Source: an uncultured Roseovarius sp. (GTDB taxonomy: Bacteria; Pseudomonadota; Alphaproteobacteria; Rhodobacterales; Rhodobacteraceae). From it: 64,000 bases of DNA. The translations under genes and the position numbers were made by a program. Positions 2,752-53,118 of this stretch are shown here, piece by piece. The stretch spans positions 1 through 64,000 of the forward strand of contig NZ_CAJXNN010000017.1 in the NCBI RefSeq assembly GCF_913057115.1, written 5' to 3'. The notes under the pieces are model-generated. The model searched no databases. It was not told where the DNA came from and worked only from the letters and a program-made list of their open reading frames with translations. Each line of letters opens with the position of its first letter. Within the stretch, counting starts at the first letter, position 1.

Positions 2752-3245
2752 AGCCCGAAAACTCCATGCGATAGACCTGCAAATAATAACACACCGAGGG
2801 CCGCAAAGACACCGGCGATGATATCGTCAAGCATCACGCCCAACGCGTCGCCGCGACGGTCAGCCCAGCCGACCGGGCCGGGCTTCCAGATGTCGAAGAG
2901 GCGAAAGAGGACAAAGGCCGTGATCCAACCGGGCCAAAGCGCAGTGAGGGCGGCTCCGGTATGGGCGGCGCCGATGGAGACCGGCAGGAAGGCCAGCCAT
3001 TGGCCCGCAACTTCGTCGATCACGATTTCCGAAGGGTCGTGATCGGATTTACCTTTTGTTTCCAACGCTGTGGCCCACCATCCTAAAGCAAATGACAGGA
3101 TCACGCCAAGGGTCAGAAGGATCGGGCCGCCCAAGGCGTGCAGCCCCCAAGCCACGGGGATAGCGGCGAGAGAACCCCAAGTGCCGGGGGCTGGACGCAG
3201 GTGACCAACATAAAAAAACGTGGCTATAGAGCGGGTTACGGTCAT
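2748..3245 (-). CDS. pgpA: Phosphatidylglycerophosphatase A
   Basis: [21 protein letters not shown]...[17 protein letters not shown], PgpA signatures; likely start MTVTRS at 3245. Confidence 0.88.
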
Positions 3246-4399: not shown

Positions 4400-4548
4400 A
4401 GGCGGAGGTTACGGCAAGCGCAATGCTACAGCGGGGTGCTTAATATTTAAGCATTTGCCTATCGTGTAACACGAAATCCCCTCGCAAATATTGTTGTAAA
4501 CGAGGTAAACGCGTAGAGAGAAGGCATTGCACAAGGATTAAGCACAAG

Positions 4549-6605: not shown

Positions 6606-7966
6606 TGGATGGCACCGTACTGGTCGCCGACGACGACCGCACGATCCGAACGGTTTTGACGCAGGCTCTGACGCGGGCGGGCTGCAAGGTGCATGCCACC
6701 TCGTCCTTGCATACGCTGATGCGGTGGGTCGGCGAGGGCAAGGGCGATGCGGTGATCACCGATGTGATGATGCCCGATGGCAATGGCCTTGAGATGCTGC
6801 CGAAGATCGCCGCTGACAGGCCGGGGCTTCCGGTGATCGTGATCTCGGCGCAGAACACGATCATGACGGCGATTCAGGCCGAAGAGGCGGATGCCTTTGA
6901 TTATCTGCCGAAACCCTTTGATTTGCCCGACCTGATGAAGCGCACCTCGCGTGCCTTGGATGCAGGCGCGCGGCAGCCTGCGCCTGCACCCGCCGACGAC
7001 CGGCCCGAGGAACTGCCGCTGATTGGGCGCACGCCTGCGATGCAGGGGCTTTACCGGGTGGTGGCGCGGTTGATGAACACCGATTTGCCGGTTCTGATCA
7101 CCGGTGAGTCAGGGACGGGAAAGAGCCTGATTGCGCGGGCTGTGCATGATTTTTCCGACAGGCGGACCTTGCCCTTTGTGACCGTCACGCCGTCGGACCT
7201 GTCGGACCTGGAAGGGCCGGCCAAGGTGATGGCGCGGGCCAAGGGCGGGACGATCGTTCTGGACGAAGTCGGCGATCTGGACGCCGAGGCGCAGGCGCGC
7301 GTGGTGCGAATGATGGATGCGCCGGGCGATCACGTGCCGCGCTTCATGGCGACAAGTCAGGGGCGCTTGGCCGAAAAGCTGGAAAACGAGGGGTTCCGCG
7401 AGGATCTTTATTACCGGCTGTCGGGGGCTGTGATTGCCGTGCCGAGCCTGCGGGACCGCGTGGATGACGTGCCGCTGCTGGTCGAGCATTTCCTTTTGCG
7501 GGCCGAACGCGAAGGGCAGCCGCCGCGCCGGTTGTCGGACGACGCCTTGGAATTGATGCGGGCCTATAGCTGGCCCGGTAACGTGCGGCAGCTGGAAAAT
7601 GCCGTGCGGCGGATCGGGTTGACCGCGCGCAACGAAGAGGTCAACCGCACCGAGGTCGAGGCCGTCCTGGGCAACCAGCCCGCCGCGCAGCCGGTGTTGA
7701 AACAAGGATCGGGGGAGACGCTGTCGGCGTCGGTCGAGCGGCACTTGCGGCGGTATTTTGATCTGCATGGCAATGTGATGCCGCCACCGGGCCTGTACAG
7801 CCGGATCTTGCGCGAGGTGGAGCTTCCGCTGATCGAAATCGCCTTGGATGCGACCGGTGGAAACCAAGCAAAATGCGCCGACCTTCTGGGCATTAACCGC
7901 AATACCTTGCGAAAGAAAATCACCGAGTTGGATATTCACGTGACACGCCGCCGCAAGTTGATGTAA
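6605..7966 (+). CDS. ntrC: Nitrogen regulation response regulator NtrC
   Basis: Receiver domain, AAA domain ([20 protein letters not shown]), C-terminal Fis HTH. Confidence 0.93.
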
Positions 7967-8064
7967 AACTGCAACATCAGTGTGGCTTTTGGGGGCTGCC
8001 GCCCCAATCATGGCCATATCTTGCGGAGGCGCCCAAGGGCGCCACAACCTGATGGGGGACATGG

Positions 8065-10335: not shown

Positions 10336-10342
10336 GGATAAA

Positions 10343-11752
10343 ATGAGTGATATTCTGATTGTCGATGACGAACGGGACATTCGGGAACTGATTGCGGATA
10401 TCCTTGAAGATGAAGGGTTTGGCACGCGGCTCGCGGGAAACTCGGACGAGTGCATGGCGCAATTCGCGGAGTCCCCGCCTGCGCTGTTGATCCTCGATAT
10501 CTGGCTGAAAGACAGCCAGATGGACGGGATCGACATCCTGAAAACCGTCAAGCGCGATTACCCTGACGTGCCGGTGGTGATCATCTCCGGCCATGGCAAT
10601 ATCGAGATCGCCGTGGCGGCGATAAAGCAGGGGGCCTACGATTTCATCGAAAAGCCGTTCAATATCGACCAACTTCTGGTGGTCATCCGGCGCGGCATGG
10701 AAACCAGCCGGTTGCGGCGCGAGAACCAGCAACTCAAGCGGCGTGAAACCGGGCCGATGGAGATGCTGGGCGATAGCCCCGCGTTCCGGACCCTTGTCGG
10801 CCAATTGGACAAGGTCACCAAATCCAACGGTCGGGTGATGCTGAGCGGGCCGGCGGGATGCGGCAAGGAATTGGCCGCGCGGTACATCCATGCCAACTCG
10901 AACCGGGCCGAGGCACCATTTGTCACGGTAAGCTGTGCGGCGGTGGAGCCGGACCGGATGGAAGAGGTCCTGTTCGGTCGCGAGGGCGAAGACGGTGTGC
11001 AGCCGGGCCTTTTGGAAGAGGCCAATGGCGGGGTTCTCTATTTCGACGAGGTGGCGGATATGCCGCTTGGCACCCAGTCGAAAATCCTGCGGGTGCTGGT
11101 GGATCAGACCTTCTTGCGCGTGGGCGGCAGTGGCAAGGTGCAGGTGGATTTGCGCGTGATCTCTTCGACCTCGCGAGATCTGGAGGGTGAGATCGCCGCC
11201 GACAAGTTCCGGCGTGAGTTGTATCACCGCCTCAACGTGGTGCCGATCGACGTGCCGGGTCTGGAAGAGAGGCGTGAGGATATTCCGGCCTTGGCGGCGC
11301 ATTTCATAGAAGGGCTGAACCGGACGCAGGGCCTGCCGCTGCGCGAGTTGAGCGATGAAGCGGCGGCGCTTTTGCAAACCATGCGCTGGCCGGGAAATGT
11401 GCGCCAACTGCGCAACGTGATTGAACGCGTGTTGATCCTTGGCGACAGCAGCGGTGAGATCGAAGCGCGCGAACTGCCGGGCGAAACCCAGGGTGCCACG
11501 GCCGAGGAGGGCCGCGTGGTACTGTCGGGGACGGTGGCCACCATGCCCCTGCGCGAGGCGCGCGAGGCCTTTGAGCGCGAATACCTGATGACCCAGATCA
11601 ACCGCTTTGGGGGCAATATCAGCCGCACGGCGGAATTCGTCGGCATGGAGCGCAGCGCGTTGCACCGCAAGCTGAAGTCCTTGGGTGTTGTCACCGGGGC
11701 CAAGGCGGGGACGAAGACCAACGCCGAGGATGAAGAAACCGCGGCGGGGTGA
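10343..11752 (+). CDS. ntrX: Nitrogen regulation response regulator NtrX
   Basis: Start MSDILIVDDERDIRELIADILEDEGF; NtrC-family AAA domain with degenerate Walker A (SGPAGCGKELAARYIHANS) and Fis HTH. Confidence 0.93.
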   Translation: MSDILIVDDERDIRELIADILEDEGFGTRLAGNSDECMAQFAESPPALLILDIWLKDSQMDGIDILKTVKRDYPDVPVVIISGHGNIEIAVAAIKQGAYDFIEKPFNIDQLLVVIRRGMETSRLRRENQQLKRRETGPMEMLGDSPAFRTLVGQLDKVTKSNGRVMLSGPAGCGKELAARYIHANSNRAEAPFVTVSCAAVEPDRMEEVLFGREGEDGVQPGLLEEANGGVLYFDEVADMPLGTQSKILRVLVDQTFLRVGGSGKVQVDLRVISSTSRDLEGEIAADKFRRELYHRLNVVPIDVPGLEERREDIPALAAHFIEGLNRTQGLPLRELSDEAAALLQTMRWPGNVRQLRNVIERVLILGDSSGEIEARELPGETQGATAEEGRVVLSGTVATMPLREAREAFEREYLMTQINRFGGNISRTAEFVGMERSALHRKLKSLGVVTGAKAGTKTNAEDEETAAG

Positions 11753-12451
11753 TCAACTTGCCAGTTTTGCCTGCGCCGCGAAGGGGCTGAGGCCAAGCCA
11801 GGACTGCATATTGTCGACCAGCACCCTGTCCCCGACCAACACGAGGGCATCGCTGTCGACGGCACTGGCGACACTTCTCAGGCCCATCCAGATTTCCGTC
11901 ATCGTGCGCAGATCGACGGTGGCATAGAGGTCCACGTCGAACCCCGGGTCGATGTGGCACAGGTCGACCGTGCGGTCCGGTTCCACGATCAGCCACCACC
12001 TGCGTTGGGAACTGGGCAACTCGGGATAGATGAATTCGATCACCCTGCGCTGACGTGGCACGGGGTCGGTGTTCAGGTTGCGCCGCATGTCCCACATCAA
12101 GAGCTCGGGGTCGAGGTTTTCCAGCGAAGGCTCGGTTTCGACCCATTTTTGCCCCCACATGCCGATGGATTCCACCACGGGCTGTAGATCGCGCCCTGCC
12201 TTTGTCAGGCGGTAGGCGTCGATTTCGGGCGGGCCCGGGATGCGGTTGCGTTCGACGATGCCGGCGGTTTCCAATTCACTCAAGCGTTTGGAAAGCAAGG
12301 CGGGCGACATGCGCGGCACACCTCGGCGCAACTCGTTGAACCGTGTCGATCCGGCGATCAACTCGCGCAGAAGAACGATTGTCCATCGGGTGCACAGAAC
12401 CTCGGCCGCCATGGCGACGGGGCAGAACTGTTTGTAGCTGGCGTTTGTCAT
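11753..12451 (-). CDS. HxlR-family winged-helix transcriptional regulator
   Basis: MTNASYKQFCPVAMAAEVLCTRWTIVLLRELIAGSTRFNELRRGVPRMSPALLSKRLSELE, HxlR signature. Confidence 0.88.
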   Translation of the reverse strand: MTNASYKQFCPVAMAAEVLCTRWTIVLLRELIAGSTRFNELRRGVPRMSPALLSKRLSELETAGIVERNRIPGPPEIDAYRLTKAGRDLQPVVESIGMWGQKWVETEPSLENLDPELLMWDMRRNLNTDPVPRQRRVIEFIYPELPSSQRRWWLIVEPDRTVDLCHIDPGFDVDLYATVDLRTMTEIWMGLRSVASAVDSDALVLVGDRVLVDNMQSWLGLSPFAAQAKLAS

Positions 12452-12636
12452 GCTGGCCTCCTTTCTTAAAGGCAGGCCCAGTGTGCCACGCCCGGCCCGC
12501 ATGCGGCCAGTTCAGATACTGTATCACCTTGGTTCACTTCGTGAACTGGCCCGACCGCTGCGCCATCTGTCAGCCTGTTCAGGCATCGGATGAAACCGGT
12601 GTTCAACGCAACCGATTGCAAAGAAAGGATAAATCA

Positions 12637-12858
12637 ATGCCTCTTGTTGATATTCAACTCATCGAGGGTGTCTTTGACGACAGCCAGAAACAGAAAATGA
12701 TCCACGACGTGACCGAGGCCATGATCGGCGTCGAGGGCGAGGCCATGCGCAGCGTGACATGGGTTAGGGTCCAGGAGGTTGCCAGTGGTGAGTGGGCGAT
12801 TGGCGGCAAACCCCTGAGCGCTGCCGATGTCAGGGCGGTGCAAGCCGAACCCGCGTGA
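12637..12858 (+). CDS. 4-oxalocrotonate tautomerase-family small tautomerase
   Basis: 73 aa MPLVDIQLIEGVFDDSQKQKMIHDVTEAMIGVEGEAMRSVTWVRVQEV; catalytic N-terminal Pro after Met. Confidence 0.85.
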   Translation: MPLVDIQLIEGVFDDSQKQKMIHDVTEAMIGVEGEAMRSVTWVRVQEVASGEWAIGGKPLSAADVRAVQAEPA

Positions 12859-12902
12859 CTGCACCGACGTCAAAACACCCAGAAAACTGAAAGGAGCGCG
12901 CG

Positions 12903-13304
12903 ATGGCGCAATCACTTGCAAAAGACCTGTGCACGGTATCCTTGTTTGAACGGCTTGGCGGGGCGGCGGGAATTCGGCAGATCGTCGATGGTGCCGTTGC
13001 GGCGCATATGCGCAACCCAGTCATCAAGGACCGCTTTACGCCCTACGAGGACCAGCCGGACCGCGTTGAAGAGATCAAGCAGCACACCTGCGATTTCTTC
13101 GCCGCAGGCAGCGGAGGGCCTGACAGGTACCAAGGCCGCAGCATGGCCGACGCTCATCGCGACATGGATATCGACCCGGCGGAATACGAGGCCGCCTGTG
13201 ACGATATCCTGACGACGATGCAGGCGCTCAACTACCGACGGGATGTCCGCGACGAGGTGCAAGGGATTTTACAGTCCTTGCAGGCCGAGATCATCCACAA
13301 GTAG
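12903..13304 (+). CDS. Group 1 truncated hemoglobin
   Basis: SLFERLGGAAGIRQIVDGAVAAHMRNPVIKDRF...FFAAGSGGPDRYQGRSMADAHRDMDI, trHbN signature. Confidence 0.88.
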   Translation: MAQSLAKDLCTVSLFERLGGAAGIRQIVDGAVAAHMRNPVIKDRFTPYEDQPDRVEEIKQHTCDFFAAGSGGPDRYQGRSMADAHRDMDIDPAEYEAACDDILTTMQALNYRRDVRDEVQGILQSLQAEIIHK

Positions 13305-13475
13305 CCCGGCAAGACAAAGGGAGGGCAGCCCTGTGACACCGCACGATTATTCGAGGCCATGATGCCTATGTTGAGGGCGTGGAACGGATTGAACTTATCC
13401 TGTTCGAAGCCCCCGCCGGGCCTCACTGACACGGCCTGACCAAACAGGTTGCGCGGGCATGTCCGGGGCCGCCTG

Positions 13476-13967
13476 CTACCCGGCTCCCGGTGTCACGATC
13501 TTCCAGCGGCCCGATTTCAGGCGGATGGCGCATGAGCTTTCGGTGAGCGGCGGGAAGGTTCGTGTCGCACTCAAGGGGCGGGCGGCGGCGACTTGTGCGG
13601 AGTCGCATTGCTTGATGCTGACTTTCTCGAAGCCCGCCCCGGCCATGCAAAGCCTCTCGGTTTTGAAGCGCAGGTTTTCGTTGGCATCGTAGCTTTCGTA
13701 GCGACCGGGGGTGATGATGCGCTGAAAGGTATAGCAATGGCCATTGGCATCGCAGCGGGTGTAAGGTGCTGTTGTCGGCGGAATATACCGCGTCAGGATA
13801 CGCGGCGGCACCTTGCGCAGGGCCGTGATCTTGCAGTCGTTGAGGGTCTGCTCCATCGCGGCGACCGAGGCCCCTTGCTTGTAATAGACCGTCAATGGCG
13901 CACAGGCAGCCAAAAGCACGAACATGGCCCCGAGAAGGGCAGGGAGACCGTAGCGTTTCAGTGTCAT
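13476..13967 (-). CDS. Hypothetical lipoprotein
   Basis: Signal/lipobox MTLKRYGLPALLGAMFVLLAACAP; small secreted Cys-containing protein. Confidence 0.65.
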   Translation of the reverse strand: MTLKRYGLPALLGAMFVLLAACAPLTVYYKQGASVAAMEQTLNDCKITALRKVPPRILTRYIPPTTAPYTRCDANGHCYTFQRIITPGRYESYDANENLRFKTERLCMAGAGFEKVSIKQCDSAQVAAARPLSATRTFPPLTESSCAIRLKSGRWKIVTPGAG

Positions 13968-14067
13968 AGCCTCAGTCTACAGGCATGCGGGCCAAGGACA
14001 AAGCAATTGACCAACCATAACCAACCTGTCATGCAACATTTTCGAGACAAGATGAGGCGCAAGACCC

Positions 14068-15444
14068 ATGAAAGTCATCATCTGCGGGGCCGGTCAGGTT
14101 GGCTGGCAGATCGCCCGCCACCTGTCGGGCGAAAAGAACGATGTCACGGTGGTGGACAACAACCCCGATCTGGTGCGGCGGGCCACCGATACGCTGGACG
14201 TGCAGGGCTTGGCCGGCTTTGCCAGCTATCCCGACATTCTGGACCGGGCGGGTGCGCGCGATGCCGATATGATCATCGCCGCCACCTATTCCGACGAGGT
14301 GAACATGGTCACCTGTCAGGTGGCGCATTCGGTCTTTGCCATTCCGCGCAAGATCGCGCGGTTGCGCAGCCAATCCTATTTGGATGCGATTTATTCCGAC
14401 CTTTACCGGCGCGATCACATGCCGATCGACGTGGTGATCAGCCCCGAGCGCGAGGTGGCCGAGGCCGCATTGCAGCGTTTGGCGGCACCTGCGGCTTTCG
14501 ATACCGAGCAATTCCTTGGCGGACGAGCGCAGCTTATGGGCCTGCGGCTGGACGAGGAATGCCCGGTGGTCAACACGCCGCTGCGGCAGTTGAGCGATCT
14601 GTTTTCCACCCTTCGCGTGGTGGTCTTGGCCATCCGGCGCGAGGGGCACTTGTTCGCACCCGAGGCCGGCGACCAGTTGTTCGTCGGCGACGAAGCCTAT
14701 GTTTTCGCCCCGCGCGACGATATTCCCCGCACGCTGGAGGTGTTTGGCAAGCGGCAGGACAAACAGGAACGTCTGGTCATTGTCGGCGGCGGCAATATCG
14801 GGTTGGCTGTGGCGCAGTCCTTGGAAGAGCATCGCACCGGCACCCGCACCAAGATTATCGAACGCGACCGCCGCTGCGCCGAGCGGGCCGCGGATGCCTT
14901 GGAACGAACCATCGTTCTGAATGGTGATGGCCTTGAGACCAGCCTGTTGAAAGAGGCGGGAATCGCACGTGCCGACGCGGTGCTTTGCGTGACAGACGAC
15001 GACAAGACCAACATGCTGACCGCCGTGCGAGCCAAGGCGGCGGGGTGCCCCTATGCGATCGCCCTGATCAACGATCCGACATTGTCCGCGCTGATGGAGC
15101 CACTGGGGATCGACGCCTTCATCAATCCGCGCGCCACGACCGTGAGTTCGATCCTGCGCCATATCCGCCATGGTCGTGTGAAATCGGTCTATTCCATCGG
15201 TGACGCCGAGGCCGAGGTGATCGAGGCCGAGATCATGTCGACCTCCTCCATCGCGGGCAAGGCGATCCGTGATATCGACTTTCCGGAAGGGGTTTTGGTC
15301 GGGGCCGTGCGCAAGGGCGAGGAGATCCGCAAACCCTCTGGCGGCCTCAAGATCGAGGCGGGCGATGTGGTGGTGCTTTTTGCCTTGGCGGCGGATGTGG
15401 GCCGGGTGGAGCAATTGCTTCAGGTCTCGATTGATTTCTTCTGA
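14068..15444 (+). CDS. trkA: Trk potassium uptake system peripheral protein TrkA
   Basis: MKVIICGAGQVGWQIARHLSGEKNDVTVVDNNP, duplicated RCK domains. Confidence 0.95.
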   Translation: MKVIICGAGQVGWQIARHLSGEKNDVTVVDNNPDLVRRATDTLDVQGLAGFASYPDILDRAGARDADMIIAATYSDEVNMVTCQVAHSVFAIPRKIARLRSQSYLDAIYSDLYRRDHMPIDVVISPEREVAEAALQRLAAPAAFDTEQFLGGRAQLMGLRLDEECPVVNTPLRQLSDLFSTLRVVVLAIRREGHLFAPEAGDQLFVGDEAYVFAPRDDIPRTLEVFGKRQDKQERLVIVGGGNIGLAVAQSLEEHRTGTRTKIIERDRRCAERAADALERTIVLNGDGLETSLLKEAGIARADAVLCVTDDDKTNMLTAVRAKAAGCPYAIALINDPTLSALMEPLGIDAFINPRATTVSSILRHIRHGRVKSVYSIGDAEAEVIEAEIMSTSSIAGKAIRDIDFPEGVLVGAVRKGEEIRKPSGGLKIEAGDVVVLFALAADVGRVEQLLQVSIDFF

Positions 15445-15447
15445 GCC

Positions 15448-16968
15448 ATGATTGCCCGGCTGCTCACCTTCCCTTTGATTTTGGTGCTCTGGGGCTTTTC
15501 CGCCTTGGCGATGCTTCTGCCGGCCCTGCACGCCCTGATGCTGGACGATCACAGCGTGGCACAGGCGTTTTTCTATTCCAGCGCGCTTGGCCTGACATTC
15601 GTGGTGATTATCGGCTTGGCGATGTCCGGGCGGCAAACCGGAGAGGCCACGGATATTCAACACCTTGGCGCGCTTTTCCTCGCCTATACCGCGCTGCCGC
15701 TCTATCTGGCCGTGCCGTTTTACGAAGGGTTGGAAACCACCCGCTTTCTCAACGCCTTTTTCGAAATGGTGTCATGCCTCACCACGACCGGGGCCACCTT
15801 GTTTGACAATCCGGGCCGCGTGCCGGAGCCCTTGCACCTGTGGCGCGGGCTTGTCGGCTGGTTCGGCGGCTTGATGATCTGGGTGGCGGCCTCGGCCATT
15901 CTGGCACCTTTGAACCTTGGCGGCTTCGAGGTGACGGCAAGCGCCGAACCCGGACAGGACGCGGCAGGGTTTCAAAGGTTCGAACGCGCGACGGCCACGA
16001 AACGGTTGCACCAGATGACCGGAGCACTGGCACCGGTGTATCTTGGCCTGACGGCGGTCTTGTGCCTGTTGCTCATGGTCAATGGCGAGCGCGCCTTCGT
16101 GGCGCTGATCCATGCCATGTCGACCATGGCAACCAGCGGCATTTCCCCCATCGGTGGCATTCATAACGGGGCGGCGGGCTATGGTGGTGAGGTGGTGCTG
16201 TTCCTGTTTATGCTGTTCGCGCTGTCCCGGCTGACTTTTTCGGCCGACACCTTGACCACCGGGCGACAAAGCCTGCTTGAAGATCCTGAATTCCGGCTGG
16301 GGCTGCTTTTGGTGCTTGGCGTGCCGCTCCTGCTGTTTTCCCGGCACTTCATTGGTGCATTCGACGTGGACGAAATGGAAAACCTGTCGCAAGCGGTCGG
16401 GGCGCTTTGGGGGGGGATGTTCACGGTCCTGTCGTTTTTGTCGACGACCGGCTTCGAAAGCCAGGCATGGGAAGCGGCGCGCGGGTGGTCCGGCCTTGGA
16501 ACCCCCGGTTTGATCCTTTTGGGGCTGGCGCTTGTGGGAGGCGGCGTTGCGACCACGGCGGGCGGGGTAAAGTTGCTTCGGGTCTATGCGCTGTACCTGA
16601 ACGGGCGGCGCGAGATGGAGCGGTTGGTTCATCCCTCGTCGGTTGGGCGCGCGACGGCGGGCAGTCGACGCTTGCGACGGCAGGGCGCCTTCATCGCATG
16701 GATATTCTTCATGCTGTTCGCACTCTCGCTGGCCTTGGTCACGGTTCTGATGGCTGCGCTTGGACAGAGCTTTCAGAACTCCATCATTTTGGCCATATCG
16801 GCGCTCAGTACCACCGGCCCATTGACGCAATCGGCCGCCGAGGTTCCGATTGACTTGCTCTCGATGAGCGCGCCTGCCAAACTCGTGCTGTGCGCGGCCA
16901 TGGTTCTGGGGCGACTGGAAACGCTTGCCATTATCGCGCTTGCCAATCCGGGCCTTTGGCGCGATTGA
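15448..16968 (+). CDS. trkH: TrkH-family potassium transporter
   Basis: 506 aa membrane protein with FFEMVSCLTTTGATL and STMATSGISPIGG P-loop motifs; follows trkA. Confidence 0.92.
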   Translation: MIARLLTFPLILVLWGFSALAMLLPALHALMLDDHSVAQAFFYSSALGLTFVVIIGLAMSGRQTGEATDIQHLGALFLAYTALPLYLAVPFYEGLETTRFLNAFFEMVSCLTTTGATLFDNPGRVPEPLHLWRGLVGWFGGLMIWVAASAILAPLNLGGFEVTASAEPGQDAAGFQRFERATATKRLHQMTGALAPVYLGLTAVLCLLLMVNGERAFVALIHAMSTMATSGISPIGGIHNGAAGYGGEVVLFLFMLFALSRLTFSADTLTTGRQSLLEDPEFRLGLLLVLGVPLLLFSRHFIGAFDVDEMENLSQAVGALWGGMFTVLSFLSTTGFESQAWEAARGWSGLGTPGLILLGLALVGGGVATTAGGVKLLRVYALYLNGRREMERLVHPSSVGRATAGSRRLRRQGAFIAWIFFMLFALSLALVTVLMAALGQSFQNSIILAISALSTTGPLTQSAAEVPIDLLSMSAPAKLVLCAAMVLGRLETLAIIALANPGLWRD

Positions 16969-17101
16969 AGCGGCCTGCAAGCGGCACCCTGCAAGGATTT
17001 GATTTTTGGGGTGGAAATGCACGCGTGACCGCTCCATACTCTGCCAGAGGGAGAGACCGTGCCGATCCGCGGCCAACGCAAGAACAAAGGTTTTCAATAC
17101 C

Positions 17102-17341
17102 ATGGCATCAGACCGACAGAATCTTCAGGACGCATTTCTCAATCAGGTCCGTAAAACAAAAATTCCGGTGACAATCTTCCTTATCAACGGTGTGAAGCTG
17201 CAAGGTGTCATCACTTGGTTCGATAATTTCTGCATCCTCCTGCGTCGCGACGGGCAATCACAACTTGTTTACAAGCATGCCGTGTCCACCATCATGCCGT
17301 CGCAGCCCCTGAGCCTTTACGAAGGCGACGAGCAAGGGTGA
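17102..17341 (+). CDS. hfq: RNA chaperone Hfq
   Basis: [64 protein letters not shown]. Confidence 0.98.
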
Positions 17342-18624
17342 CATCCCCGACGACGACGGAACGCGAAGACACCCGGGCCTGGGTGTTGCACCCAGACATT
17401 CGCGGCCACGAGGCCGCGCGTGACGCCGAGCTTGCCTTGGAAGAGGCGATCTCGCTTGCCCATGCGCTGCCCGGACTTGACGTTGTCGGCAGTGAAGTCG
17501 TGCGCCTGCCCCGACCGCACCCCGGGATGCTGTTCGGCAAAGGCAAGCTGGAGGAGCTGAAAGAGCGGTTGGCGGCGCATGACGTGGGCCTTGTACTGGT
17601 CGATGGGCCGGTCAGCCCCGTGCAACAGCGTAATCTGGAAAAGGCCTTGGGCGTCAAACTCCTTGACCGCACCGGGCTGATCCTTGAAATCTTCAGCGAA
17701 CGCGCCGCGACCCGTGAGGGTGTTCTTCAGGTCGAGATGGCGGCGCTTTCCTATCAGCGCACGCGGCTGGTGCGGGCCTGGACCCACCTTGAACGTCAGC
17801 GGGGCGGGCTGGGATTCGTTGGCGGACCTGGGGAAACCCAGATCGAGGCTGACCGCCGCGCCATTGACGAACAGTTGGTGCGCTTGCGCCGTCAACTCGA
17901 CAAGGTGGTGAAAACCCGCGAATTGCACCGCGCCTCGCGGGCTAAGGTGCCTTTTCCGATTGTCGCCTTGGTCGGCTATACCAATGCGGGCAAATCGACA
18001 CTGTTCAACCGGATGACCGGGGCCAAGGTCATGGCCAAGGACATGCTTTTCGCCACGCTGGACCCCACGATGCGGCGCATCGAACTGCCCGGCGGCGGGC
18101 CCGAGGTGATCCTGTCGGACACGGTGGGCTTTATTTCCGATTTGCCCACTGAACTGGTCGCCGCCTTCCGCGCCACGCTTGAGGAGGTGCTGGCCGCCGA
18201 TCTGATCGTGCATGTGCGCGATATCTCGCACCCCGAAACCGAGGAACAGGCCGAGGATGTGCGCGCCATCATGGACAGCCTTGGAGTGTCCGAGGACACG
18301 CCGCAAATCGAGGTCTGGAACAAGATCGACCGGCTGGATAAGGCTGACCGTGACGCAGTGGTGACCCGCGCCGCGCGCCTGGATCACGTGCAGGCGCTTT
18401 CGGCTTGGACCGGCGAAGGCATGGACTCGCTGATCGAGGCGATCACCGAAGGCATCACCGAGGCCACACATGAAACGCACCTTTCGCTTGGCTTCGACGA
18501 GGGACGCAAGCGCGCATGGTTGTTCGAAAAAGGCGTCGTCGAGGATGAACGCCAGACCGAAACGGGATTCGACCTGACCGTGCGCTGGAGCGCCAAGCAA
18601 CAGGCGCAGTTCGAACAGCTTTAG
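17338..18624 (+). CDS. hflX: GTPase HflX (GTG start)
   Basis: [39 protein letters not shown]; overlaps hfq stop. Confidence 0.95.
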
Positions 18625-18633
18625 GCCGGGATT

Positions 18634-18969
18634 CTAATGCGGTGTGGTGTTCGAGAACAGTTGAATTATCACGATTCCGCCCAGAATCATCCCAGTGCCG
18701 ATGATTGCCGGCATGTCCAGTTTCTGACCGAACATCGCGAAACCGATAATCGCGATAAAGACGATCCCCAAACCGGACCAGACCGCATAGGCGACCCCAA
18801 CGGGAATATACTTGAGCGTCAGCCCGAGAAGATAAAGTGCGACGGCATAGCCGACGACGGCCAAAAGGGTCGGCCCCAGCCGCGTGAACTGTTGGCTGGC
18901 CTGTAGCGCCGAGGTGCCCACGGTTTCAGCGGCAATTGCGAAGATCAGCAGAAGATACACATTGGTCAT
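18634..18969 (-). CDS. Small multidrug resistance (SMR/EmrE-type) transporter
   Basis: MTNVYLLLIFAIAAETVGTSALQASQQFTRLGPT...GVAYAVWSGLGIV, four TM helices. Confidence 0.92.
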   Translation of the reverse strand: MTNVYLLLIFAIAAETVGTSALQASQQFTRLGPTLLAVVGYAVALYLLGLTLKYIPVGVAYAVWSGLGIVFIAIIGFAMFGQKLDMPAIIGTGMILGGIVIIQLFSNTTPH

Positions 18970-19090
18970 GGGCTTGGTCCTTTCGCGTTTCAACGCCTTG
19001 CTACGCGCTTCGTTCTACCGGGGCAATGCGCAAGAAACGGGTCGCTTGAAGGGGGGCGCTCGGGTTGCATGACGGCAAGGAGATGCCGCC

Positions 19091-19687
19091 ATGTCCCAAA
19101 CCCTGATCGCGCTTGTTCTGTTCCTTTTCCCCTTGGCCTATAGCCCCGGGCCGGGGAACCTGTTTTTCGCGGCCAATGGCGCGCGTTTCGGCTTTCGCTC
19201 AACACTCAGGGCGACTGCGGGGTATCATTTGGCCACCTGGGCCGTGACAGCCTTGATCGGGTTTGGCCTTCTGGGCGCGCTTGAACTCGTGCCGGGGGCG
19301 TTTCGCGCCTTGCAACTGGCGGGGGCGGGTTATGTCTTGTGGATCGCTTGGAGGATGCTGCGGGCCGGCGTACTGGAACAAGGGGGCAAGGCGCGCCCGG
19401 CCTCATTCATGGATGGGGTCATCCTGCTTTTGCTCAACCCCAAGGCTTATGTGATCATCACGCTGATGTTCACACAGTTTCTGACCCCCAGCGCGGTCAA
19501 CCATGTGGTTCTGGTGCTGTTGATCACCACGATTTTCACCCTCAACAACCTGATTGCCTTTAGCCTTTGGACCTTGGCAGGTGACAGGCTGGCGGCCCTT
19601 TTCGCCCAAGACAGCAGCGCGCGGCGGCTGAACCTGCTTTTCGGCGGGATGCTGGCGGCGGTGGCCGTCTGGATGGCTTTGGCCTAG
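19091..19687 (+). CDS. LysE-family translocator
   Basis: YSPGPGNLFFAANGARFGFRSTLRATAGYHLATW..., RhtB/LysE topology. Confidence 0.88.
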   Translation: MSQTLIALVLFLFPLAYSPGPGNLFFAANGARFGFRSTLRATAGYHLATWAVTALIGFGLLGALELVPGAFRALQLAGAGYVLWIAWRMLRAGVLEQGGKARPASFMDGVILLLLNPKAYVIITLMFTQFLTPSAVNHVVLVLLITTIFTLNNLIAFSLWTLAGDRLAALFAQDSSARRLNLLFGGMLAAVAVWMALA

Positions 19688-19714
19688 GCTAATGGCAAAC
19701 GCGGGAGAAACGCC

Positions 19715-20086
19715 ATGAGAACCGGACGATGCGAATGTGGCCAAGTGGCCTTTGAGGTTGACGAGGTCCGAGACACGGTGACCATATGCCATTGCAGCCA
19801 ATGCCGTCGGACGAGCGGCCATTTGTGGGGGTCCACCCATGCGCCATTCGCCGCGCTCCGGTTGACACGGGACGACGGGCTTCGGTGGTATGCCTCATCC
19901 GAGATCGCCAAGCGGGGCTTTTGTCAGTTCTGCGGGTCCAGCCTTTTTTACCGGATGAACGGTGAAGACGGTATCGGCATCGCCACGGGCTGTTTGGATG
20001 ACACGCGAGGCCTGGCTGTCAGCAAGCATATCTTCACCGACGACAGGGGTGATTATTATGATCTGGCTGAGGCTCCGGAAACCTAA
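19715..20086 (+). CDS. GFA-family protein (glutathione-dependent formaldehyde-activating-like)
   Basis: GRCECGQVAFEVDEV...CHCSQCRRTSG...KRGFCQFCGSSLF Zn-binding Cys motifs. Confidence 0.9.
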   Translation: MRTGRCECGQVAFEVDEVRDTVTICHCSQCRRTSGHLWGSTHAPFAALRLTRDDGLRWYASSEIAKRGFCQFCGSSLFYRMNGEDGIGIATGCLDDTRGLAVSKHIFTDDRGDYYDLAEAPET

Positions 20087-21288
20087 GCGTATTCCTCGGC
20101 CCTTTCGAGCCGCGTCATCAGCAGCCGCGCCACGCAAACGGCCAGCAAAACGCCCGTCAACAAGGGCAGGGGCGTGCCGTCAAAGGCCAGACCCACGGGG
20201 ATCGTCAGGATGACCGAGCCGACGGTCGCCAAGGCCCCCACGACACTGGCCGCCATGCCCGCCACATGGCCCAAGGGTTCCATCGCCAGCGCGTTGATAT
20301 TGCCCAGTGTCAGGGCCGCTTGAAAAAAGATCGTGGTTTGCCAAACAAGATAGACCGGAAAGCGCAGCCCTTCGGGCAGACCGACAAGGAAAAGGCCAAG
20401 CACCAGCGCGGTAAACCCGATTTGCAGGCCCAAGGTGACCGAGATCATCCGGCGCATGCCCAAGCGCATCACAAGTGCCGCGTTCAGAAGGCTGCCCGTG
20501 CCCGCACAGATCGCCATCATGAAGAACCAAAGCGGGAATTGATCGGCCCGGTCGAAGGTGACTTCGAAAAGCTGCTGGATTGAGCTGATCGAGCTGAAAA
20601 GCGTGGTCAGGCAGAGGGTCTGCACGGCGATGGAGATGCGCACCACCCTGGGGGCCAAAACCGCGCGCAGGGCCTCGATCAAGGCCTTTATGCGAAACGG
20701 GCGACGGGCCTCGGCTGGCAGGGGTTCGGCCAGTCGCAGGGTGAGCCAAATACTTGTGATCGTTGCGAAAATCAGGAAGCTGGCGAAAATCCCGCGCCAA
20801 CCGGTAAGCGCGATGATCCCGCTGCCCACCAAGGGGGCCACGGCGGGGGCGAGGGTGAACACCATCATCACGAAGCTGACGATCCGGGCCATTTCGCGGC
20901 CTGAATAGAGGTCACGGATAATGGCCAGCGGCACCACCCGCGCGGTGGCCGCGCCCAGCCCCTGAAGCACCCGGGCGGCCAGAATCAATTCCAGCGTCGG
21001 GGCCATGGCGGCCAGCGCCGCACCGGCCATGTAAACCGCGGCCCCCCAAAGGATGACCCGTTTGCGCCCGAAGCTGTCCGACAGCGGCCCGGTAAAAAAC
21101 GTGCCCACACCAAGACCAAGGATGAAGGAGGTGATGATCAATTGCGCGCGGTTCAGCGCGTCGGGTGTCAATTCCTGCCCGATGCGGGGCATGGCGGGCA
21201 GCATGGCGTCAATGGAAAAGGCCACCGTGGCCACCAGCATCGCCATGAGGGCCACGAATTCGACGCGGCCCGGGGTTTGGGCGCTCAT
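20083..21288 (-). CDS. MFS multidrug effflux transporter, Bcr/CflA type
   Basis: 401 aa, 12 TM, FTGPLSDSFGRKRVILWG motif. Confidence 0.9.
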   Translation of the reverse strand: MSAQTPGRVEFVALMAMLVATVAFSIDAMLPAMPRIGQELTPDALNRAQLIITSFILGLGVGTFFTGPLSDSFGRKRVILWGAAVYMAGAALAAMAPTLELILAARVLQGLGAATARVVPLAIIRDLYSGREMARIVSFVMMVFTLAPAVAPLVGSGIIALTGWRGIFASFLIFATITSIWLTLRLAEPLPAEARRPFRIKALIEALRAVLAPRVVRISIAVQTLCLTTLFSSISSIQQLFEVTFDRADQFPLWFFMMAICAGTGSLLNAALVMRLGMRRMISVTLGLQIGFTALVLGLFLVGLPEGLRFPVYLVWQTTIFFQAALTLGNINALAMEPLGHVAGMAASVVGALATVGSVILTIPVGLAFDGTPLPLLTGVLLAVCVARLLMTRLERAEEYA

Positions 21289-21659
21289 CGCTCGGAGCTT
21301 TCGGGCGTGTCGGGGTCGTTGGCGGCTTCGGGCTCGGCCTCATGGTCCGGGTGGCGATGGCCCAACCGCGCGATGAGCCATTCGGTATGCTCCTCGCGCT
21401 TGCGCACCGCGAAAGCACCAAACTGCTGGATTGCCACGGCGAAGATGCCAAGTCCCACGAGAATAAAAACCGTGGTGCCGATCTTGCCCATCGGCGTGGC
21501 GGGAACCAATTCGCCGTACCCAACGGTGGAAAGGGTCACGACCGTGAAGAAATAGCTGTCGAGCCACGACCAGCCCTCGACATGGTGAAAAAACACCGTG
21601 CCTCCGGCGATGATCAACACCAGCATCCCCAGAAGGGTCAGGGCTTTGGCTCCGCGCAT
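21285..21659 (-). CDS. Two-TM ion channel family protein (potassium channel)
   Basis: WLDSYFFTVVTLSTVGYGELVPATPMGK selectivity filter TVGYG. Confidence 0.92.
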   Translation of the reverse strand: MRGAKALTLLGMLVLIIAGGTVFFHHVEGWSWLDSYFFTVVTLSTVGYGELVPATPMGKIGTTVFILVGLGIFAVAIQQFGAFAVRKREEHTEWLIARLGHRHPDHEAEPEAANDPDTPESSER

Positions 21660-21663
21660 GGGG

Positions 21664-22308
21664 TTAGCCTTCCTCGGTCATTTGGCCGGTGATCTCGTCG
21701 ATCACCTTGATCCACAAGTCAGGGTCCTGCGCCCCGGGTACCGCATGTTGACCATTGACGATGAAGGTGGGGACCGAGGTAATGCCCATCTCGCGGAATT
21801 GCTTGTCGCGCTCAAGAATTGCCTGCTCATCAGCATCGCTGTCCAGAAGGCGGCGCACCACGGCGGCGTCCATTTCCAACCCATCGGCAAGATCGGCCAG
21901 AACATCGCGGTCGCCAATATCGCGGCCTTGCTCGAAATAGGCTTTGAACAGCGCCACGGCCATGGCCATTTGCCGGTCTTCGATGCCTGCCCAATGGATC
22001 AGGCGGTGCGCGTCCAGCGTGTTGGGCGTGCGTGCGATACCTTCGAAATTGATGTCGAGGCCCGCCTCCTTGGCTTTTTCCACCACCGGCAGATAGGCCT
22101 GCACCGCGCCGTCCTGCCCGCCGAACTTGGCCTCTAGGTATTCGCGGCGGTCCATGCCCTCGCGCGGCATGTCGGGGTTGAGCTGAAAGGGGTGCCATTC
22201 AATGGTGAAGGGGTGATTGGGGCGCTCGGCAAGCGCCTTGTCCAAAAGGGTTTTCCCGATGTAGCACCAAGGGCAGATCGGGTCGGAGATGATATCAAGT
22301 TTGACCAT
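21664..22308 (-). CDS. DsbA-family (FrnE-like) oxidoreductase
   Basis: Start MVKLDIISDPICPWCYIGKTLLDKAL; CPWC active site. Confidence 0.92.
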   Translation of the reverse strand: MVKLDIISDPICPWCYIGKTLLDKALAERPNHPFTIEWHPFQLNPDMPREGMDRREYLEAKFGGQDGAVQAYLPVVEKAKEAGLDINFEGIARTPNTLDAHRLIHWAGIEDRQMAMAVALFKAYFEQGRDIGDRDVLADLADGLEMDAAVVRRLLDSDADEQAILERDKQFREMGITSVPTFIVNGQHAVPGAQDPDLWIKVIDEITGQMTEEG

Positions 22309-23824
22309 GTTGGGCCTTGTAGATCGGCCGCAATGCGCGACGCAGGAGTTTTCCGTTGGCGCCGGTCGGCAGCGCATCGAGGTGGTAAAAGCCGCGCGGG
22401 CGTTTGTAGGCGGCAAGGTTTTGGGTGACGTAGTCCTCAAGCGCGGCGGGATCAACCGGGTCGGGCGCGGTGTAGAAAGCCATGATCACGCGGGCGTCCT
22501 GTTTGACCTCGATGTCGGTCACTGCCGCTTGGGTGATGCCGGGGAAGGCATTGAGCACCGCTTCGACCTCCAGCGGAGAAACCCGAAAGCCGCCCGCATT
22601 CATCATATCGTCGGCGCGGCCCAGATAGGTGATGTCGCCTTGCGCATCCATCATACCTTGGTCGCCGGTGAGGAACCATTCGCCCTGAAACTTGTCGCGG
22701 GTGGCGTCTTCGGCCTTGAGGTAGCCCAGCATCAGGCCCGGATCGGTTTGATGGACCGCAATCGTGCCTTCCTCGCCAATCTCAACCGGGCCATTGTCAC
22801 CGATCACGGCCACGCGCCGTCCCGGTTGCGGGCGGCCCAAAGTGCCGGGGGTGGCCGGATGGTCGGGGCTGGCCGAAATGAAGGTGGAACATTCCGACAT
22901 CCCGTAAGCCTCGTGAATGGCGGTGCCTGTGGCCTTCTCCCAGTGCTGGCGGATGGTGTCGGAGAGTTTTTCACCGGCGGCCAAGCCATGCCGCAGTTTC
23001 GGCAGCGACAGGGGATTGCCCGTCAGCATTTTGCGGTAAACGCCGGGAGCGGCGGCAAAGATCGTCGCGTCATGGCGTTTGAGCAGCAGGGGCAGTTGCG
23101 CAGGTTCGATCCCCGCCTCAGGGATCAGGGCCGTGGCGCCCATCGTCCAAGGGTCCATCAACCCCGTGCCCAGCGTATAGGTCCAGTTGAAGGCCCCGGC
23201 GTGCAAAAGGCGATCCTCAGCGCGCAACCCGTACCAGCCCTGCATCATCATCTGCCGCGCCCAGATCGCGCGATGCGCGTGGCACACGGCGCGCGGCACG
23301 CCCGAGGTGCCGGAGGTATAGATGATATAGGCAAGGCGGTTGGGGTCGCCCATGTCGAAACCGGCGGGAGGCAGGTCGCGCATCGCCTCGAGGTCGGCTT
23401 GGTCGAGGATCGGCACATCCGTGTCGGGGCAGGCGATGCCGGGGCCACGCAGGATAAGCGCAGGCTCCAGCGTATCAATCATCTTGGCCACTTCCGGCGC
23501 GGTCAGCTGGCTTGAGGTGGGCACCGGCACGAGGCCCACGGCAATCGCGCCCAGGTAAGCGATGGGAAACTCCACCGTATTGCCAAGCCGCATCAGGACC
23601 CGGTCACCGGGTTTGAGGCCCATCTGCAAAAGCCCGGTGCCGGTGCCAAGCACAGCCGCCTTCAGGCGCGCATAGCTCCAGCGCTCCGAGCCACTCAGCC
23701 GCAAAACGGCCAGAGCGATCTTGTCAGGCGCGTCATCGGCCCGGCCCAGCACATGCGCGGCCAGATTGAAGGGCGCGGGGCAGGGGGGAAGAACATCGGA
23801 ATGGCTTTCAGACAGCATGCCCAT
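22295..23824 (-). CDS. AMP-dependent acyl-CoA synthetase (benzoate-CoA-ligase-like)
   Basis: YIIYTSGTSGVPRAVCHAHRA, GRADDMMNAGGFRVSPLEVEAVL. Confidence 0.88.
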   Translation of the reverse strand: MGMLSESHSDVLPPCPAPFNLAAHVLGRADDAPDKIALAVLRLSGSERWSYARLKAAVLGTGTGLLQMGLKPGDRVLMRLGNTVEFPIAYLGAIAVGLVPVPTSSQLTAPEVAKMIDTLEPALILRGPGIACPDTDVPILDQADLEAMRDLPPAGFDMGDPNRLAYIIYTSGTSGVPRAVCHAHRAIWARQMMMQGWYGLRAEDRLLHAGAFNWTYTLGTGLMDPWTMGATALIPEAGIEPAQLPLLLKRHDATIFAAAPGVYRKMLTGNPLSLPKLRHGLAAGEKLSDTIRQHWEKATGTAIHEAYGMSECSTFISASPDHPATPGTLGRPQPGRRVAVIGDNGPVEIGEEGTIAVHQTDPGLMLGYLKAEDATRDKFQGEWFLTGDQGMMDAQGDITYLGRADDMMNAGGFRVSPLEVEAVLNAFPGITQAAVTDIEVKQDARVIMAFYTAPDPVDPAALEDYVTQNLAAYKRPRGFYHLDALPTGANGKLLRRALRPIYKAQHGQT

Positions 23825-23883
23825 GGCTTAGGCCGCGTGTCCCTGAGTTGCAAGTGGCCCGGCCTCTGCGTATAGGGTTGAAC

Positions 23884-24507
23884 ATGCAGAAAACGACGCC
23901 CGAAAACCTGATCCGTGTCGCCCGTGAAAACGGCCAACAGGAAGCGGCTGAACCGCTCAACCTTGGCGAGCGGGTGCGCGAGTTGCGCACCGCGCGTGGC
24001 TGGACACTGGAACAGGCGGCCAAACAAGCGGGGCTGGCGCGCTCGACCCTGTCCAAAATCGAAAACGGGCAGATGTCTCCTACCTACGAGGCGCTGAAAA
24101 AGCTGGCCGTGGGTTTGGAGATTTCCGTACCGCAGCTTTTCACCCCGCCGCAGCGCGAACAGGTCAATGGCCGAATGTCGGTGACCAAGGCGGGCGAGGG
24201 CACGCATCAGGCCACCGCCACCTATGAGCACGAATTGCTGGGCGAGGCTCTGACCAAGAAGCAGATGCTCCCTTATCGCGCCCGCATCCGCGCCCGCGAT
24301 ATCGCCGAATTCGACGGCTGGGTGCGCCATGACGGCGAAGAGTTTCTTTATGTCCTCACCGGGGTCGTGCGGCTTTATACGGAATTTTACGAACCCATCG
24401 AGATGCGCCGCGGCGACAGCGCCTATTACGACGCCACCATGGGGCATAACGTGATCTCGGTCAGCGACGAGGACGCGACGATCCTCTGGGTGACCTCGCT
24501 GGTGTGA
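23884..24507 (+). CDS. XRE-family regulator with C-terminal cupin domain
   Basis: HTH LGERVRELRTARGWTLEQAAKQAGLARSTLSKIENGQMSPTYEALKKLA + cupin region; divergent from acyl-CoA ligase. Confidence 0.9.
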   Translation: MQKTTPENLIRVARENGQQEAAEPLNLGERVRELRTARGWTLEQAAKQAGLARSTLSKIENGQMSPTYEALKKLAVGLEISVPQLFTPPQREQVNGRMSVTKAGEGTHQATATYEHELLGEALTKKQMLPYRARIRARDIAEFDGWVRHDGEEFLYVLTGVVRLYTEFYEPIEMRRGDSAYYDATMGHNVISVSDEDATILWVTSLV

Positions 24508-43849: not shown

Positions 43850-44539
43850 ATGTCCTCCGATCAACCCACCGTCCTGCTTGTCGAGGATGAACCGGCCCAA
43901 CGCGAAGTCTTGGCCTATAACTTGGAGGCCGAAGGCTTCCGCGTTTCCCGTGCCGAAAACGGCGAGGAAGCGCTGATGCTCGTCGAGGAGGGCGCGCCCG
44001 ACCTGATCGTGCTGGACTGGATGCTGCCCAATGTCTCTGGCATCGAGGTCTGCCGCCAACTCAAGACCCGCTCCGATACGCGCGGCGTGCCGATCATCAT
44101 GCTCTCGGCCCGCTCCGAGGAGGTGGACCGCGTGCGCGGCTTGGAAACCGGGGCTGACGACTACGTGGTCAAACCCTATTCCGTGGTCGAACTCATGGCC
44201 CGCGTCCGCGCCCAACTGCGCCGCTCCCGGCCCAGCACCGTGGGCGAACGTCTGGAATACGAAGATATCGTGCTCGATTCCGAAACCCACCGCGTCACCC
44301 GCGACGGCAAGGATCTCAAGCTCGGCCCGACCGAATTTCGCCTGCTGTCGACCTTCATGGAAAAACCGGGCCGCGTCTGGAGCCGCGAACAATTGCTCGA
44401 TCGCGTCTGGGGCCGCGACATCTATGTCGATACCCGCACCGTCGATGTCCATATCGGACGGCTGCGCAAAGCGCTCAGCAAACACGGCGGGGCCGACCCC
44501 CTGCGCACCGTGCGCGGCGCTGGCTACGCCTTGGGATAG
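43850..44539 (+). CDS. phoB: Phosphate regulon response regulator PhoB
   Basis: Receiver + OmpR/PhoB winged helix (LGPTEFRLLSTFMEKPGRVWSREQLLDRVWG). Confidence 0.95.
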   Translation: MSSDQPTVLLVEDEPAQREVLAYNLEAEGFRVSRAENGEEALMLVEEGAPDLIVLDWMLPNVSGIEVCRQLKTRSDTRGVPIIMLSARSEEVDRVRGLETGADDYVVKPYSVVELMARVRAQLRRSRPSTVGERLEYEDIVLDSETHRVTRDGKDLKLGPTEFRLLSTFMEKPGRVWSREQLLDRVWGRDIYVDTRTVDVHIGRLRKALSKHGGADPLRTVRGAGYALG

Positions 44540-44542
44540 GAT

Positions 44543-44624
44543 TTCGTACGACTCGTACGAAGGTCCGTCATGCCGTGTGGATTCTCGTACGAAACCCTTT
44601 GGGTAGGCGTACGACTCGTACGAA
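44543..44624. repeat. CGTACGA palindromic repeat cluster (three units) downstream of phoB
   Basis: TTCGTACGACTCGTACGAA (44543-44561), TCGTACGAAA (44585-44594), CGTACGACTCGTACGAA (44608-44624). Confidence 0.9.
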
Positions 44625-44732
44625 AACGCGCTGACATGAATACTTCGGCAAAACTGCATAACTGGCGCGCGCCAGCATATGACTTTTTCGCAAATGCTCC
44701 TTACGGACCTCTCATGATCTGCCTTGGGGATT

Positions 44733-44822
44733 GGGTATTCTTGCCAAGAAAAGCCGAAGCTATTCATCTTTCCAAAAATACTCTGGGGGAGGCGCCCGCA
44801 GGGCGGCGGGGGCAAAGCCCCC
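44733..44822. repeat. Dispersed intergenic repeat, two half-copies in inverted orientation plus GGGGGCAAAGCCCCC stem
   Basis: GGTATTCTTGCCAAGAAAAGCCGAAGC then TTCATCTTTCCAAAAATACTCTGGGGG and GGGGGCAAAGCCCCC (44808-44822). Confidence 0.85.
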
Positions 44823-44846
44823 AAAAAAATCCACCACCTCAATCCC

Positions 44847-52122: not shown

Positions 52123-52761
52123 CTAGAGCCCCAAAAGACCAGACACCTCCTTTGCCAGCGCGCGCACTTCATCCGTCGCCGCCGCCGACCGCTTCGCTTC
52201 CATCACCCCCAGACCGCGCCCCAAGGCTTCGGCATAGACCACCCGATTGGCCAGCGTCGCCTGCAAGGGCTTGGCCTCAAGGCCGGCCACCGATTTTGCC
52301 ACATCCTCGCCAACCCGCGTGCCGGTGCGTGTCCGGTTCATGACAATATGCGTCGGTGTCCCAACCCGGTCCGCCAAGTCCAAAACATCATGGGTGGCCC
52401 AGACATCCGCCTGACTGGCGGATACAGGGATCAGCACCAAATCCGCCTCGCGCAAGACCTGCCGTATATCGCTATCGGCCTTGGGCGGCGTATCGACCAA
52501 AATGACATCGGCCACATCCCCCACCCCTCTGAGGGCGCGCGAAATGCCATAGGCCGTCGCGGTCGCAAAGCGCAGGTTGTCATCCTCTCCCAAAGCCTCT
52601 TCACGAATATCCAGCCATTTGCCAAGACTGCCTTGCGGGTCAGTGTCCAAGAGACCAACGCGCTTGCCCTCCGCCAGATACGCGATTGCCAAATTGGACA
52701 CGAGCGTCGTCTTCCCCGCGCCACCTTTCTGTTGCGCCACGCAGATGATTTGACTGCTCAT
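52123..52761 (-). CDS. ParA-family ATPase (orphan, no adjacent parB)
   Basis: IICVAQQKGGAGKTTLVSNLAIAYLAEGKRVGLLDTDPQGSLGKWLD; deviant Walker A KGGAGKTT. Confidence 0.92.
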   Translation of the reverse strand: MSSQIICVAQQKGGAGKTTLVSNLAIAYLAEGKRVGLLDTDPQGSLGKWLDIREEALGEDDNLRFATATAYGISRALRGVGDVADVILVDTPPKADSDIRQVLREADLVLIPVSASQADVWATHDVLDLADRVGTPTHIVMNRTRTGTRVGEDVAKSVAGLEAKPLQATLANRVVYAEALGRGLGVMEAKRSAAATDEVRALAKEVSGLLGL

Positions 52762-52939: not shown

Positions 52940-52970
52940 CGTACGAAACACCCGTACAAAACGTACGAAA
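52940..52970. repeat. CGTACGA repeat cluster upstream of orphan parA
   Basis: CGTACGAAACACCCGTACAAAACGTACGAAA; 18 bp CGTACAAAACGTACGAAA identical to 4033-4050. Confidence 0.9.
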
Positions 52971-53010
52971 GTGGCCGCGCGGCGTGTTAACCTTGCGGTA
53001 TTCGGGAAGA

Positions 53011-53042
53011 AATACCGACGCAATACCGACGTTTTACCGATG
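53011..53042. repeat. Three 11-bp phased direct repeats upstream of orphan parA / psuG
   Basis: AATACCGACG (53011-53020), AATACCGACG (53022-53031), TTTACCGATG (53033-53042). Confidence 0.75.
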
Positions 53043-53118
53043 TGATGCAGACTGGGGTTTTTCCTGTTAATCAAGGGCTTAGTGCCGATTCGCGCCTCAT
53101 TCGCAAAAGGACACCGCC

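Follow-up and report, generated by a model that had tools for sequence, protein, structure and literature searches.

The window analyzed here, a stretch of 64,000 nucleotides of a Roseovarius genome, contains two full copies of an array that we call the grid element, one directly downstream of a phoB-like gene and one within the coding sequence of an ispDF fusion gene (Table 1). The grid element is an oriented array of about 95 bp, in which CGTACG units occur at offsets 0, 9, 41, 63, and 72, with an optional sixth unit at 54, and are separated by spacers that are fixed in length, not in sequence. Its rough consensus can be written as TTTCGTACGACTCGTACGA-N20-CCCCCGATTTTCGTACGAAAATCGGGGGTAAGCGTACGACTCGTACGAAAA. 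The end with the offsets 0 and 9 is named the U1 side and the opposite end the U5 side. The spacers are weakly conserved, and their C- and G-tracts are often substituted, the right tract by an extra CGCGTACA unit. The copy after phoB begins 2 bp past the stop codon and has no mismatch over the 30 unit positions used in a grid scan, and the ispDF copy has two mismatches; the two represent a single element in its two orientations. Just beyond the U1 end of several elements (L046, L051, and L056), additional TCTGTACAGA or CTGTACA palindromes lie off the main grid. The inverted repeat 3′ of phoB is also present at the orthologous place in a second Roseovarius genome, G007.

Table 1. Genes, repeats, and skew domains in the 64,000-nt window.
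Feature	Position	Strand	Details
ispDF fusion gene	3242-4387	-	product with IspD and IspF (YgbB) domains
Full grid element	4030-4113	-	units at 4105, 4096, 4064 (CGTACA), 4042, 4033 (CGTACA)
U1-side domain of the 4030-4113 element	4114-24000		GC skew +0.13 beside the element, dropping to ~+0.03 (4-kb windows)
U1-side domain of the 44542-44625 element	24001-44541		GC skew negative in the mean, -0.10 beside the element (4-kb windows)
phoB-like gene	43850-44539		
Full grid element	44542-44625	+	CGTACG units at 44545, 44554, 44586, 44608, 44617
GC-rich inverted repeat	44786-44828		GGGGGAGGCGCCCGCAGGGCGGCGGGGGCAAAGCCCCC
ParA/MipZ-like ATPase gene	52123-52761	-	
Three-unit sub-array	52940-52967	+	CGTACG, CGTACA, CGTACG; 13 and 9 bp apart, matching grid offsets 41, 54, 63
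Second repeat family	53012-53092	+	three 11-bp ACCGACG-type repeats, then GTTAA...TTA box and GATTCG; adjoins the sub-array
psuG-like gene	53119	+	

A sequence-only reading of this DNA had described CGTACG clusters at 4033-4112, 44543-44624, and 52940-52970, and all of the sequences it quoted were found at these places. That reading had not recognized the grid, the polarity, the link to GC skew, or the species dialects. The first two clusters are full grid copies, and the third is a sub-array that belongs within a separate repeat family, as revealed by comparison with 11 similar sites of the source genome. It had also suggested that the 4096 and 44608 copies share a flank past the palindrome. 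However, conservation stops a few bases beyond the last unit, so that most of the shared AAAAC[C/G]CGCTG falls outside the conserved columns, and the similarity joins opposite ends of the two elements; for both reasons it is largely coincidental.

The third cluster sits between the ParA/MipZ-like ATPase gene and the psuG-like gene. The dispersed family to which it belongs is approximately 130–170 bp long and consists of CGCGC..TGTTAA, three or four 11-bp ACCGACG repeats, a GTTAACC..TTA box, and GATTCG, which is a CcrM-type GANTC site. The GTAC triple in front is present in some copies and absent in others. At least 10 copies are found in the source genome (L134 near 1995, L135 near 3889, L186, L188-L193, L196, L198, and 52940-53092 of the window).

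A genome-wide count had been proposed as a check on the motif, and the excess holds. In the window, TTCGTACGA occurs five times against 0.17 expected from dinucleotide shuffles. In the 3.44-Mb source genome, the counts are 254 for CGTACGAAA and 23 for the same word reversed. When one mismatch is allowed and both strands of this near-palindrome are counted, CGTACGACTCGTACG gives 215 compared to 0. A grid scan over 1.19 Mb of the source genome detected 55 elements and only one in the reversed sequence; the genome thus carries at least 55 grid elements, and chance is ruled out by the shuffles, the reversed-word counts, and the scan. Most of the 55 are perfect over the 30 positions (41), and the others have one (9), two (3), or six (2) mismatches, so that nearly all copies show 0–2 mismatches or are absent, with few decayed. 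Roseovarius genomes contain about 60 or more copies, approximately 60–75 per genome, each species having its own spelling.

The conservation of the element was examined in 35 orthologous pairs between the source genome and G007 or a third genome, G046, with both copies within eight mismatches. Core units are 97.2% identical, whereas the spacers are 60% and 69% and the near flanks 46% and 69% identical; between non-orthologous copies, spacer identity is 36–44%. Ascertainment is unlikely to explain the contrast between units and spacers because the element scores are strongly bimodal. The units and their spacing are under strong purifying selection, and the grid copies are old and orthologous between species.

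The spelling of the element varies among species. Exact CGTACG is abundant in three of 71 Roseovarius genomes (the source genome, G007, and G046), with a few variant matches elsewhere, while the shared right-hand pattern GTACRAAANYCGCGTAC is found in 14 of the 71 and in none of the other sampled genera of the family. The flanking spellings include TGTACA (G028), GGTACAAA (G056), CGTACAAAAC (G033), and others. In G033, the left palindrome is replaced by the unrelated TTGCGTCC-ATGATGGACGCAA at about the same distance (L203, L215, L224, and L267-L293), which looks as if one module of a complex had changed its specificity. A comparison with relatives, which had also been proposed, shows that two places, the phoB 3′ flank and rpoA-rplQ, are common to different dialects; an orthologous full element follows phoB in G007, and diverged GTAC arrays are present there in G046, G056, G021, and G033. 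In the rpoA-rplQ gap of genomes of other genera (G150, G162, and G226; L295, L297, and L307), GTAC or TATGCACG array-like sequence lies directly after the rpoA stop codon. That the element family extends beyond Roseovarius is only suggested by these arrays.

With gene ends taken from a purpose-made codon-usage gene caller, a stop codon facing the element was found no more than 30 bp away for 79 of 106 copies, compared to 5% of random positions, and the neighbors are unrelated core genes. The earlier view that the motif is not the operator of a single gene is borne out by its genome-wide occurrence and by these neighbors. A set of operators or terminators of a transcription regulon could account for the palindromic units and for some copies near gene starts, but this explanation is scarcely credible, since most copies abut stop codons of functionally unconnected genes and the skew described below is left unexplained. 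No Rfam family was found for the window and one 20-kb locus. A terminator or RNA hairpin is rejected because exact DNA words are kept rather than pairing, and fold z-scores are only -0.9 to -3.3.

The ispDF copy encodes residues ~92–119 of the fusion enzyme, and the ispDF gene of G007 has a homologous element. The ispDF gene of G052, a genome in which no element was detected, lacks it, and the homologous stretch differs by a few residues in length, with no 95-bp insertion. The nearly equal length indicates that the element of the source gene was spelled in place and not inserted; empty-site comparisons at other loci were not clean. This bears on the possibility of a mobile or repeat element of the MITE or REP/PATE type, with strand-preferring insertion at gene ends. 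Such an element would fit the inverted-repeat-like ends, the many copies, and the orientation bias relative to skew, and REP/BIME, ERIC, and PATE sequences are likewise dispersed, have palindromic parts, and occur at gene ends. However, the grid element differs from them in its unrelated spacers despite exact words and unit spacing, in its dialects, in its link to skew, and in its copy in coding DNA, which replaces homologous codons. Its copies are orthologous across dialects, and few are decayed. A search of plasmid or phage collections found no similar DNA; four exact 17-mer matches in viral contigs are about the chance level. A palindromic family spread by copying, one of the earlier suggestions, is thus disfavored by the unrelated spacers, the old orthologous copies, and the ispDF copy, and we regard a mobile origin as very improbable.

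On the 2.89-Mb contig of G007, at least 59 sites are present, with a mean spacing of 47 kb among the matches listed. Among these matches, the spacing is more even than random (CV 0.66 vs. 0.97, p = 4e-4), and the orientations form 19 runs compared to 17.1 expected (p = 0.80). A relation of position and strand to the replichores, which the sequence-only reading had proposed to plot, is therefore not seen as orientation blocks in G007, and replichore polarity of the elements is ruled out. The even spacing, together with the retention of sites at gene ends and the purifying selection on units, would suit a role in chromosome architecture, in which a nucleoid or condensin-type protein binds the dispersed sites, the borders of loops or domains are set there, and skew is affected indirectly. 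This role is unlikely, because it predicts neither a one-sided mutational gradient of ~20 kb nor dialects at constant positions.

Bacterial GC skew is usually read as a record of replication from ori to ter. In the genomes analyzed here, each element marks a one-sided domain of strand-asymmetric composition, which lies on its U1 side and decays over ~20 kb. The local skew is negative on the element strand in 91 of 106 elements (p = 2e-14), with values of -0.099 on the U1 side and -0.023 on the U5 side, and an upward jump in skew is seen at 60 of 66 elements (p = 2e-11). Both full copies in the window are flanked by such domains (Table 1), and the skew is ~-0.02 in the 4-kb window starting at 44000. 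Contig C1 shows +0.14 beside a minus-strand element at 73 kb, zero near 140 kb, and -0.22 beside a plus-strand element at 188 kb, past which it is back to ~0. Between tandem elements, the skew drifts back toward zero and is not flat. A one-sided source model, in which skew is emitted on the U1 side of each element with ~20-kb decay, was fitted in 2.5-kb windows over ~1 Mb and explains 53% of the skew variance (R2 0.53), the U5 term being near zero. The observed fit was reached in none of 2000 randomizations under each of three null models, namely random places, random orientations, and circular shifts (30-kb setting). Gene direction as the cause is ruled out, since gene orientation accounts for 3% of the variance (0.03) compared to 53%. 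The second repeat family showed no clear effect on skew at six sites.

The negative skew on the element strand is also found at 29 of 29 sites in G033 and at 19 of 20 sites in other species and dialects. The matching loci of the element-less G052, a control of one genome and ~400 kb, show no jump (-0.08 to +0.03). G052 has its own saw-tooth skew domains without a recognizable element (L247-L266, C1:1840001-2240000, with jumps near 2023000 and 2101000), and a motif search at these jumps found nothing common to them. These domains suggest either a dialect there that we do not read or the existence of other causes.

The skew effect peaks at four-fold sites (-0.191 vs. -0.071) and is weak at the first and second codon positions, and this preference for silent sites means that mutation or repair drives it. 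GC skew and AT skew run in opposite directions (r of about -0.6 to -0.7 in the source genome; weaker in G007, -0.29), the pattern that C-to-T change confined to a single strand should leave. On the U1 side, the strand depleted in C and rich in G and T has its 5′-to-3′ direction pointing away from the element. This polarity would be expected of a fork that departs from the element, of DNA transfer with a 5′ end in the lead, or of break-induced copying with its long nascent single strands.

The first of these possibilities corresponds to a unidirectional start of replication, or a restart following a stall or break, in which a protein array launches a fork (or break-induced replication) toward U1 and leading-strand bias generates the skew. 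Consistent with it, the strand poor in C is the leading strand of such a fork, the skew jumps on one side and then fades gradually, much as in replication domains, and the effect is greatest at silent sites. However, ~60 or more origins per chromosome have no bacterial precedent, the return of the skew toward zero between tandem elements is not what replication would leave, and, unless transfer acts as a drive, it is difficult to see how dialects could arise and every copy be rewritten. We place this explanation second and hold it to be rather doubtful. A bidirectional origin is ruled out, as both of its sides should be strongly skewed, with opposite signs, and the values on the element strand are -0.10 at U1 and -0.02 at U5.

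A packaging-type signal, which had been among the earlier suggestions, could be a pac-like start for a gene transfer agent (GTA), with one-way headful packaging from the element and transfer spreading it. For the GTA of Dinoroseobacter shibae, packaging shows discrete peaks that have not been explained (PMC11841831), and its packaging starts, inferred from coverage peaks, are dispersed sites of a directional process in Rhodobacterales, as grid elements may be; moreover, most Roseovarius genomes have a GTA, including the source genome, G007, and G046. The D. shibae sites differ from grid elements in having no known sequence. That known GTA small terminases are without a DNA-binding domain (PMC11841831) counts against this explanation. 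Packaging sites should be confined to genomes that have a GTA cluster or had one until recently, but G033, with ~50 elements and the cleanest orientation signal, lacks the GTA tail gene PF09343 and matches PF13547 only in part, whereas G006 has GTA and no detected element. GTA packaging is disfavored by these two genomes and appears quite improbable, although G033 may have lost its GTA recently and G006 may use an unread dialect. Only a partial GTA_TIM match in an open frame of 840–893 residues, with no DUF2460, was observed in G003, G012, G016, G033, G034, and G052, in which the GTA cluster is apparently missing or reshaped; G006 is a near relative of G012 and G052.

Two of the functions suggested earlier are plausible, namely a signal of the uptake type and recognition by an unknown protein. 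The closest functional precedent is provided by the DNA uptake sequences DUS of Neisseriaceae and USS of Pasteurellaceae, which, like the grid element, have many exact copies, conserved words, and species dialects (PMC3630211), are often at gene 3′ ends, and have copies in coding DNA too. The grid element shares with DUS that an overrepresented exact word is under selection. However, DUS and USS are 9–12 bp long and occur in ~1000 or more copies per genome, at ~1 copy per 1–2 kb, whereas the grid element has five to six units in ~95 bp, at approximately one copy per 47 kb among the G007 matches listed, and is accompanied by a one-sided skew domain. KOPS/FtsK, Chi/RecBCD, and Ter/Tus resemble it in polarity, as oriented sequences read by a DNA machine, but these sequences are short (8–23 bp), and KOPS and Chi follow the replichore. 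The element thus lacks the defining features of DUS (size and density), KOPS and Chi (replichore polarity), mobile repeats, and operators, and we infer that it works like a transfer signal, with uptake as a candidate function.

The explanation that we put first, with a probability of roughly 40%, is that the element is a polar DNA-import or recombination signal resembling uptake sequences. A dedicated protein complex would bind each element, which would be the fixed start of directional homologous DNA transfer or recombination, working like a DNA uptake sequence, except that it would be large, sparse, and polar. The same strand would always be single-stranded or newly copied on the U1 side, so that C-to-T change on it could gradually build up the skew. 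If copies that match better were transferred preferentially, this would maintain the elements at fixed positions, rewrite all copies jointly into a species dialect, and account for an element spelled within the essential ispDF coding sequence. These three features, the joint change of units, the fixed places, and the copy in the gene of an essential enzyme, suggest that a drive is at work, for instance biased DNA transfer. Also in favor of this explanation, we count the conserved grid, the one-sided and silent-site skew with its agreement in other dialects, the missing jumps at the G052 loci, and the even spacing. The U1 flanks are slightly more alike between species than the U5 flanks (86.7% vs. 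83.9%), which fits more exchange, or more conserved genes, on that side. The ComEC domain PF03772 is present in 24 of 24 genomes tested, with and without detected elements, which is consistent with import but does not discriminate. The main weakness of an import signal is that DNA entry from the element with the 3′ end first predicts a bias on the opposite strand. Furthermore, its size and rarity are far from those of known uptake sequences, no receptor or binding protein was found, and the G052 skew domains without a recognizable element also count against it. We know of no uptake specificity in Alphaproteobacteria.

Local GC-skew peaks that are independent of the replichore and rich in core genes have been described in Rhodobacterales without a cause (PMC9836097). 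That study, in which only long repeats of >800 bp were examined, found no sequence element (PMC9836097); the Roseovarius domains are of the same kind but are tied to one. Core genes are places at which homologous exchange is possible, in line with an import signal. No description of the CGTACG grid element was found in the literature examined. Since about half of the variance in local skew is predicted by the element, whatever the replichore and the direction of genes, an undescribed directional process probably starts there. We lean toward the view that these arrays represent an undescribed class of polar chromosomal landmarks, possibly Rhodobacteraceae-wide, with fast-changing dialects, from which a directional process, either import and recombination or replication, starts approximately every 47 kb and shapes strand composition. 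If true, the GC-skew peaks of Rhodobacterales would have found their cause. In their effect, the dialects are reminiscent of the barriers between species that uptake sequences create, and thus the element may help to determine the partners of DNA exchange. It offers a sequence-level handle on the cause of the skew peaks of marine Rhodobacterales and on whether gene exchange starts at preferred places.
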